64,000 nucleotides of DNA from Bacillota bacterium (GTDB taxonomy: Bacteria > Bacillota > Clostridia > Peptostreptococcales > Acidaminobacteraceae). Position 1 is the first letter of the stretch, and each line of letters begins with the position of its first letter. This document shows positions 2,297 to 4,486 of the stretch, piece by piece. The position numbers and the translations under genes were made by a program. The notes beneath the pieces are model-generated. The model worked only from the letters and a program-made list of their open reading frames with translations, searched no databases and was not told the DNA's origin. Location of the stretch: contig JAOARG010000034.1 of NCBI GenBank assembly GCA_025210655.1, positions 1-64,000 on the forward strand, in the 5' to 3' direction.

Positions 2297-2326
2297 AAAA
2301 AAAGACACTGGACAAACTGTCCAGTG
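2297..2326 (-). terminator. Rho-independent terminator ending the hairpin chain
   Basis: A perfect 9-bp stem (2306-2314 with 2318-2326, loop 2315-2317) is followed on the minus strand by seven T residues (2303 to 2297). A second 9-bp stem (2330-2338 with 2346-2354) sits just before it. Confidence 0.9.
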
Positions 2327-2727
2327 CCTCAGACTGTATACAAACTACAGTCTGGTTGAGCATTATGATGAATCATAACGTTAAGCAGTCATTTCATTCC
2401 TGTGGAGCGATGAATTCATCAATTCATTGTTAAGCAGTAATTCTTCGAATTACATACAAGGTAATTTCCCTTAGGGAAAATACTTATATAAGAAAAGAAC
2501 TTAAACTATTAAAAACGAACCAATTTAATGGCATGACCTTAAAAACCTTGCTACTTCAAGCTTTAAAATTTTCAGCTTGTGTAGCAAGGTTTCCTTGAAC
2601 AGTGTTTAAAAAACACAGCTTAACGTCTATGATAATAGATGCTTAACGGTGCAAATGCACCTGCTTCACATATATTGAGGTTCTCAATATATTGCTTAAC
2701 GAGAGTGTAGACTTTGTCAACACTCTG
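2297..2727 (-). ncRNA. Candidate structured RNA: chain of about twelve hairpins
   Basis: Between the kinase stop codon and flgD no gene is visible, yet almost every base can join a local stem. Stems (plus coordinates): 2702-2708/2720-2726 with an inner GAC/GTC, 2670-2679/2683-2692, 2648-2652/2657-2661, 2626-2630/2635-2639, 2602-2607/2611-2616, 2543-2554/2581-2592 with inner 2557-2562/2574-2579, 2465-2470/2474-2476 plus AAA, 2437-2443/2447-2453, 2408-2416/2421-2429, 2363-2368/2373-2378, 2330-2338/2346-2354 and the terminator stem. On the minus strand GTTAAGC follows several 5' stems (at 2700, 2647 and 2624, with variant GTGAAGC near 2668). The complement GCTTAAC appears on the 3' side (2435, 2386, variant GCTCAAC at 2361). 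The minus strand is favoured because the chain ends in a minus-strand terminator. I do not recognise a known RNA family. Confidence 0.6.
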
Positions 2728-4486
2728 ATAATTCCAAAGAAAAATAAAACTCTACTCCATTATCAATATTCCTAACTCCATAATCCGACCCATGGAGTTC
2801 AAGTATTGTTTTAACTATCGTTAGTCCTAATCCGCTACCTCCAAATTCTCTATTACGGGATTTTTCAGTTCTATAATACCTATCCCATATTTTATCTAAA
2901 TCTTCATCATCTAGAACTACACCGTAGTTTCTCACATATATATATACTAAATTTTCATCAATCTTTGATAGGACTTCTATAGTTTCCCCTTCTGACGAAT
3001 ATCTTATTCCATTACTAACAAAATTGTTTAAGACCTGCTCATATTTCTTAATATCCCCTTTTACCTTTACTTGCTTCACATCTACTATTAACTTTTGATT
3101 TTTCCCTTCAATAGACATTTCAAATTTTTTTAGACTTCTATTGACGAATTCATCCAAATTAAAACTTGTCTCATTCATTTCATAGCTTCCGGTTTCCAGT
3201 TTTGATAACTGAATAGTTTCCAGTACAAGCTCATTCATTTTTTCTATTTCTTCAGAAATAACATCTAAATAATAATCTGGATCTTTTTCATAGGCCTTGT
3301 GTCTAACTACATCCAGAAAACCTGATATTATTCCCAGTGGGGTTTTAAACTCATGGGACATACTTGTAAGTAGATTTCTCATCCTTTCTTCATTCTTTGC
3401 TTTTCTTTCAGCTTCCTTTTCTAGTTCATTCATTGCATGGGATAGATTCGTAGAAATACTATTTAAACTATCTGATAATACGCTTAGTTCATCATCTGTA
3501 TCTATATTAGTCCTCTTCGAAAAATCCAACTCAGAAATTGACTTTGCAGAATCTATGAGAGTTAGAAGAGGCTTGGTTACTTTCTTTGTAAAAAGGAATG
3601 CCAATACAATTATCAGAAGAAACTGAGCTAAAAAAATATAAGTATAATATCCATTGAGAATCACAAATGCATCATGTACATTTGCAAGGGTAAATAGAGC
3701 CATAGAATATATTTTTTTATTTCCTTCTACCTGCACTTCCCTTATAAATGTAATTATTTCAAGACCAGAATCTTCCTCTGTGAATCTGTTTGGCAATACC
3801 TCTTCAATACTTATAGATTTAGAAAAATCATCATTTATGAAATTCATTAACTCCCTAAATAATTTTTCGTGTTGATATGAAAATATCCCAGACTCCCTAA
3901 CAAGAAAATTTTCTTCAATGATTTTTCCTTCAACACTTGCAAACTGCTTTTCTACTTCCTCATAAAATTCTAAAAGCATTTCTCCCTCTTCATTGATATA
4001 AGTATTCTTTGAAGACTTAATCTCAATGGGCATAATATAGCTCGTTCCCTTTATAAGGACCCCTGATACACTGACTTCCTCATTCAACCTCAATTTCCGA
4101 CCAAAATTTCTATAAGATCCCCTTTCATCCACAAGAAAATCTACTATTATTTTATGCTCTATACCACTATCATCCTTTATTAAAATACTGTTGAATGAAT
4201 CAAAAAAGTTTTCATTGAGAATTGTTCCAGTCTCATCAAAAAAAACAATTGCTGACTGATTGTCTTCAGTAAAATCAACTATTGACTGATTTATTTCCTC
4301 ATTGGAAAAATCTTTGGATATAAAATCATCACTAAGTCCAATGAAGTCTCTTTCAACTTTAGACACCTTAGTATTCCAATATACATCTTCTAAGAAAACA
4401 TTTTGAAATAGCATTTGAATAAGCATGATAAAAACAAATATACCTGTTATTGAGAAAAATATTTTCTCTACTATACTGGACTTCAT
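2717..4486 (-). CDS. Sensor histidine kinase
   Basis: This 589-residue membrane kinase pairs with the response regulator directly upstream. TM1 is at about 12-32, an extracytoplasmic sensor region of about 245 residues follows, and TM2 is near 280-300. Then come HAMP (about 301-355), the dimerisation/phosphoacceptor box SMSHEFKTPL with His378, the ATPase N-box around Asn492 and the G-box FGGSGLGLTIVK near 555. The sensor region shows no domain I can name, so the signal is unknown. Its start abuts the regulator stop (TAAATG), so they form an operon. The stop codon lies inside the first stem of the downstream hairpin chain. Confidence 0.93.
   Translation of the reverse strand: MKSSIVEKIFFSITGIFVFIMLIQMLFQNVFLEDVYWNTKVSKVERDFIGLSDDFISKDFSNEEINQSIVDFTEDNQSAIVFFDETGTILNENFFDSFNSILIKDDSGIEHKIIVDFLVDERGSYRNFGRKLRLNEEVSVSGVLIKGTSYIMPIEIKSSKNTYINEEGEMLLEFYEEVEKQFASVEGKIIEENFLVRESGIFSYQHEKLFRELMNFINDDFSKSISIEEVLPNRFTEEDSGLEIITFIREVQVEGNKKIYSMALFTLANVHDAFVILNGYYTYIFLAQFLLIIVLAFLFTKKVTKPLLTLIDSAKSISELDFSKRTNIDTDDELSVLSDSLNSISTNLSHAMNELEKEAERKAKNEERMRNLLTSMSHEFKTPLGIISGFLDVVRHKAYEKDPDYYLDVISEEIEKMNELVLETIQLSKLETGSYEMNETSFNLDEFVNRSLKKFEMSIEGKNQKLIVDVKQVKVKGDIKKYEQVLNNFVSNGIRYSSEGETIEVLSKIDENLVYIYVRNYGVVLDDEDLDKIWDRYYRTEKSRNREFGGSGLGLTIVKTILELHGSDYGVRNIDNGVEFYFSLELSEC

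Follow-up and report, generated by a model that had tools for sequence, protein, structure and literature searches.

The 64,000-nt stretch of DNA analysed here (the window) carries on its minus strand, in order, the 3′ end of a histidine-kinase gene, a chain of hairpins, an intrinsic terminator, and then flgD and flgE. The initial annotation proposed twelve linked hairpins between positions 2297 and 2727 as a candidate new structured RNA, which would be either free or part of a long 3′ UTR belonging to the two-component operon. Our results indicated that the observation was sound and that its interpretation was partly supported: the segment is a copy of a genome-restricted folded-DNA repeat of unusual design, which is probably mobile.

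BLAST matches within the same genome set the true bounds of the repeat element at about 2330–2727 on the minus strand (~398 bp), with the terminator left outside. The minus-strand terminator that had been taken as the end of the chain is present, as a hairpin (~2303–2329) with a T-run (2296–2329 together), but the alignments to other copies end at query position 413 or earlier, so that it represents host sequence beyond the end of the repeat (~2330) and is not common to the other copies. Read along the minus strand, the left arm consists of the terminal hairpin h1 (CAGAGTGTTGACAAAGTCTACACTCT; 2702–2727), linker S1 (GTTAAGC; 2694–2700), hairpin h2 (2670–2693), linker S2 (GTGAAGC; 2663–2669), hairpin h3 (2648–2662), linker S3 (GTTAAGC; 2641–2647), hairpin h4 (2625–2640) and linker S4 (GTTAAGC; 2618–2624). 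The core (2436–2617) contains h5, a central long hairpin (arms 2543–2554 and 2581–2592), a family-A/L016 extra segment and h6 (~2436–2453). The right arm follows with linker S5 (GCTTAAC; 2429–2435), hairpin h7 (2409–2428), linker S6 (GCTCCAC; 2402–2408), a segment for which the copies examined show no stable hairpin (2387–2401), linker S7 (GCTTAAC; 2380–2386), hairpin h9 (2362–2379), linker S8 (GCTCAAC; 2355–2361) and the right terminal hairpin h10 (CAGACTGTAGTTTGTATACAGTCTG; 2330–2354). Comparison of the sequences by reading showed that h1 resembles the reverse complement of h10, forming a terminal inverted repeat.

The hairpins lie where they had been described and fold strongly, except in the segment 2387–2401, and the GTTAAGC/GCTTAAC spacer heptamers are located as claimed, together with an eighth, the diverged S6, which had been overlooked and which other copies have as GCTTCAC or GCTTAAC. 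A 321-bp stretch of the chain holds five of the eight exact GTTAAGC sites present on the two strands of the window; linker scans of the window overlooked this copy because of its GTGAAGC and GCTCCAC variants. The element is non-coding, but the statement that it holds no ORF needs amendment, as its 5′ end overlaps the end of the histidine-kinase ORF (2717–4486) and supplies its last three codons and TGA stop (2717–2727). The HATPase_c domain of the kinase stops at residue 586 of 589, and the codons supplied by the element lie just beyond it.

Folding of the segment against dinucleotide shuffles gave z-scores of −11.3 for the minus-strand RNA, −11.35 for the plus-strand RNA and −9.5 for the DNA. 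A search of the whole window against Rfam gave no match at gathering thresholds, in agreement with the earlier statement that no known RNA family could be matched, and a permissive scan gave sub-threshold matches far under the cut-offs.

With the segment as query, 43 BLAST matches at approximately 25 loci were obtained in its own 3.9-Mb genome, and covariance models built for the two halves (R1, left; R2, right) retrieved 22 left and 20 right halves there as strong matches, these copy counts being lower bounds. In reverse complement, right halves were matched by R1 as well (up to 50.7 bits), and the element is therefore quasi-palindromic. BLASTN and covariation had been suggested as a check on homologues, and this check was answered in part: compensatory changes were found between copies of the same genome, but none of 60 relatives was matched by BLAST. 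R2 found no match in 390 other genomes of the class, a BLAST search of phages gave no match, and that of plasmids gave one 28-bp match. Scans for a pattern of three GCTTAAC-type linkers returned 100 stretches from unrelated phyla in genome contigs, and viral linker-pattern scans returned 20, 0 and 32 stretches. No convincing ladder, as we call a heptamer chain with its reverse-complement chain and hairpins, was found in these stretches by R2 (100 loci) or by a ladder caller that demands all three features (152 loci, 1.2 Mb).

The copies fall into family A (the window copy and L009–L018) and the more diverged family B (L019–L029). Complete copies carry four GTTAAGC-type linkers, the core and four GCTTAAC-type linkers, and the hairpins between the linkers differ from copy to copy and yet stay paired, with the S6–S7 segment as the exception. 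Family B has diverged at 45–58% of loop positions, 15–20% of stem positions and 7–9% of linker positions, which indicates that stems and linkers are maintained. Copy structure is variable, with mosaics and truncated copies. The covariance models also detected a short form on contig C9, each arm of which has two linkers. Copies lie in both orientations relative to the flanking genes.

The weakly matching loci L031 and L032 turned out to be ladders built on different linkers, and as queries they gave 48 and 67 matches, respectively, in the same genome, where elements related to the window copy but with other spacers occupy dozens of additional loci. The linker classes identified are GTTAAGC/GCTTAAC, GTCTAGT/ACTAGAC, GACTAGT/ACTAGTC, ATCTAGG/CCTAGAT and AGCCCAGC/GCTGGGCT, and GCCTAAT/ATTAGGC and AGGGGAA/TTCCCCT are probably further ones. 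In the typical layout, the left arm contains about four occurrences of one spacer and the right arm about four of its reverse complement, and some elements are mosaics. L233, L020 and L248 are GCCTAAT/ATTAGGC ladders with long arms, and at L233 such a ladder apparently lies inside a GTCTAGT ladder, suggesting a nested insertion. The ladder caller identified 39 ladders in loci of this genome, and neither 775 kb from five genomes of the same family nor 300 kb of shuffled sequence yielded any; a triple ACTAGAC pattern was matched 45 times in this genome and never in the 390 others. By our own count, all eight loci in which both arms were matched have the GTCTAG arm to the left of the CTAGAC arm. 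At least two GTCTAG sites were present in the other arm of 17 of the 41 CTAGAC chains with enough flank, and several of the remaining chains have a left arm of GCCCAGC type or none recognisable. Complementary arms are thus common and not obligatory.

The initial annotation had suggested that the spacers could pair over long range, and the DNA fold of the window copy bore this out, with S1:S7, S2:S6 and S3:S5 paired. Across 18 copies, this register was 95% Watson–Crick, versus 88% for the nested register (S1:S8 ... S4:S5), and a parallel assignment of the linkers scored the same as the former. S2 and S6 vary together (T-A in 8 copies, G-C in 7, other in 3), although this change mostly separates family A from family B and may be a single family-level event. 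These folds and pairings suggest that a ladder may form in the cell; a complementary other arm is missing from about half of the CTAGAC chains, and hence the ladder would not be obligatory.

Changes on both sides of a pair were found in 9 of 25 pairs of the left half and 6 of 22 of the right half, above all 500 shuffles. A maintained RNA stem should tolerate G-U on its own strand more than A-C. The hairpin stems of families A and B contained 915 Watson–Crick, 5 G-U, 8 A-C and 13 other pairs, and those of the CTAGAC chains 541, 6, 3 and 30, respectively. Pooled, the roughly 1,500 pairs included 11 G-U and 11 A-C, and neither strand was preferred; the stem finder counts both alike as mismatches, which makes the absolute rates low estimates and leaves the ratio fair. 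Since G-U was no commoner than A-C on either strand, DNA hairpins are favoured over RNA hairpins. Template-switch repair of palindromes during replication could mimic compensatory change and partly explain the low G-U frequency. The linkers are conserved outside the palindromes, which suggests that selection or recognition may also act.

Direct repeats flank 4 of the 18 copies, all of them younger copies of family A, and match at 20/20, 21/23, 25/25 and 14/15 bp; when flanks of different copies were compared as a null, the largest score was 9. On reading the sequences, the repeat was found to be a whole terminator hairpin at L010 and L011 and part of one at L009 and L014, and removal of the element and one repeat from L011 restores an intact terminator with its T-run. 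Hairpins start within 12 nt of the outer CTAGAC-chain end in 23 of 49 cases, compared with 37 of 450 places chosen at random. Among these 23, a few are further hairpins of the element itself, and many of the others appear by eye to meet the end of a converging gene. Inspection with an ORF script placed none of 24 loci between divergent genes. Among the loci examined, no copy with a long ORF was seen that could represent a MITE-type autonomous transposon with the same ends. Two shortened left halves in inverted orientation enclose 9.2 kb at L294 (G000:C72:17265–26848); a cargo transposon was considered here and rejected, as the enclosed genes are ordinary chromosomal ones.

The genome encodes three Y1 transposases whose best NCBIfam match, under the curated cut-off, is the REP-associated tyrosine transposase, and all three RAYT-like genes are flanked by other repeats, not by ladders. 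Two of them, of about 300 aa (L335 and L336; G000:C42:124914 and C76:5415), are flanked by inverted palindromes of the GGGGTCAGG type, which form a REP-like set separate from the ladders. The third, a 176-aa frame (L334; G000:C71:28034), is flanked by several AAGGATGCTTTTTGC...GCAAAACC... repeats, which also occur near several ladder loci. Other repeats were seen as well. Positions 1–324 of the window, downstream of flgE, hold a tandem array of 2.5 copies of a 128-bp unit, parts of which recur at L009 (beside a family A copy) and at L252/L253, indicating another dispersed repeat. Imperfect GTAGGTCGTAGTTCGTGGGTCG-like repeat runs flank several ladders (L230, L242, L243, L245 and others), and GACCTACG/CGTAGGTC occur in some ladder cores.

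Taken together, the many copies, their restriction to one genome, the covariation of the stems, the coordination of linker classes, the duplicated flanks and the position at gene ends make it likely that the segment is a mobile, non-autonomous DNA element of MITE/REP-BIME type, belonging to a large superfamily restricted to this genome as far as tested. The Y1 transposases, being flanked by other repeats, count against this reading. A structured RNA family expressed from many loci, as a free RNA or 3′ UTR element whose covariation would reflect RNA folding, seems unlikely to us. It would account for the strong fold, the compensatory stem changes, the gene-end location and the intact downstream terminator in the window; however, G-U pairs are not enriched on either strand, both strands of the quasi-palindromic element fold alike, the copies face either way with respect to flanking genes, no promoter or terminator common to the copies was seen, and target-site-like duplications are present. 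What survives of the candidate new structured RNA is therefore a real, maintained secondary structure with covarying stems, but its reading as RNA is disfavoured, and the free RNA or long operon 3′ UTR is not supported, given some 25 copies in both orientations whose G-U pairs are as rare as A-C and which do not share the terminator.

The old family B copies, still structured, would also fit a function for the host. Such a BIME-like element, maintained locus by locus through selection irrespective of how it arose, would serve termination, mRNA 3′-end protection or binding of a nucleoid protein. The retention of stems and linkers in family B while loops diverge (45–58% of positions), the absence of loci between divergent genes (0 of 24) and the many chains that abut terminators agree with this proposal, against which stand the absence from all relatives tested, the variable copy structure with its mosaics and shortened copies, and the lack of a known protein partner. 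We consider it improbable as the main explanation, and it is compatible with a mobile element. A further reading is that of integron-type folded recombination sites. attC sites act as folded single strands and have one core pair per site, with the consensus GTTRRRY/RYYYAAC, which we take GTTAAGC and GCTTAAC to fit. Sister elements built in the same way have GTCTAGT, GACTAGT, ATCTAGG and AGCCCAGC as linkers, none of which fits, each element has four plus four cores, and the elements are dispersed singly with no cassette array seen. An attC-like folded site is thus highly improbable, and we rejected it on account of the other linker classes.

For the mobile element, the following mechanism may be proposed. 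An element consists of two palindrome arms with a fixed heptamer, usually its reverse complement in the right arm, on either side of a structured core. In single-stranded or supercoiled DNA, the palindromes could extrude as hairpins, and heptamers of opposite arms could pair (S1:S7, S2:S6, S3:S5). The result would be a branched ladder open to recognition by an enzyme. A dedicated putative enzyme would move the element, recognising it as DNA and not as RNA. New copies would enter gene 3′ ends, either at the stop codon or next to a terminator hairpin, and in some cases would duplicate about 15–25 bp of target; the window copy lies at the end of the histidine-kinase gene, just upstream of a terminator. 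More tentatively, as a possibility that we do not favour at present, the ladders might constitute a mobile DNA class of their own, with the heptamer linker as identity tag and the palindromes as interchangeable stems; each of the several linker classes that coexist in this genome would form branched ladder DNA, to be recognised by a putative enzyme directed to terminator hairpins and the ends of genes.

Comparison with known systems revealed both likenesses and differences. Like MITEs (PMC10969869), the element is below 500 bp, lacks an ORF, has terminal inverted repeats (h1 versus reverse-complemented h10), is intergenic, AT-rich and stem-loop forming, occurs in many dispersed copies and, in the less diverged family, has flanking direct repeats (4 of 18 copies, all family A). 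Unlike them, its flank duplications vary in length (~15–25 bp) and consist of terminator-hairpin sequence, it contains an internal palindrome array with a fixed heptamer linker, and no parental insertion sequence was found. With REPs, BIMEs and REPINs (PMC2817692, PMC3116915, PMC3733652), it shares high-copy, genome-restricted extragenic palindromes in arrays and inverted pairs, compensatory stem changes, hybrid arrays and RAYT-like Y1 transposases encoded by the genome. In REPs, the palindrome and a GTAG/CGTC tag are conserved and the spacers vary (PMC2817692, PMC3116915, PMC3733652), whereas each ladder element keeps its heptamer, the palindromes differ by position and copy, and there is no GTAG/CGTC-tagged palindrome. 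A cognate RAYT flanked by the ladder repeat was likewise not found, the three RAYT-like genes carrying other repeats. The element resembles the large ornate RNAs OLE, GOLLD, ROOL and HEARO in its long, almost fully paired, multi-junction fold, and differs from them in its ~25 dispersed copies and sister families, the absence of an RNA-type G-U signal and the lack of an Rfam match. A literature search found no description of arrays with conserved linkers and variable palindromes, which is weak evidence given the limited collection.

The apparent orphan RNA of this locus thus becomes one member of a superfamily of folded and probably mobile DNA, in which conserved spacers and freely varying palindromes form a design unmatched by the REP, BIME, REPIN and MITE descriptions compared. 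If confirmed, the superfamily would offer a natural case for separating selection on DNA structure from selection on RNA structure, where covariation alone would say RNA, and for asking how structured DNA elements locate terminators and gene ends.
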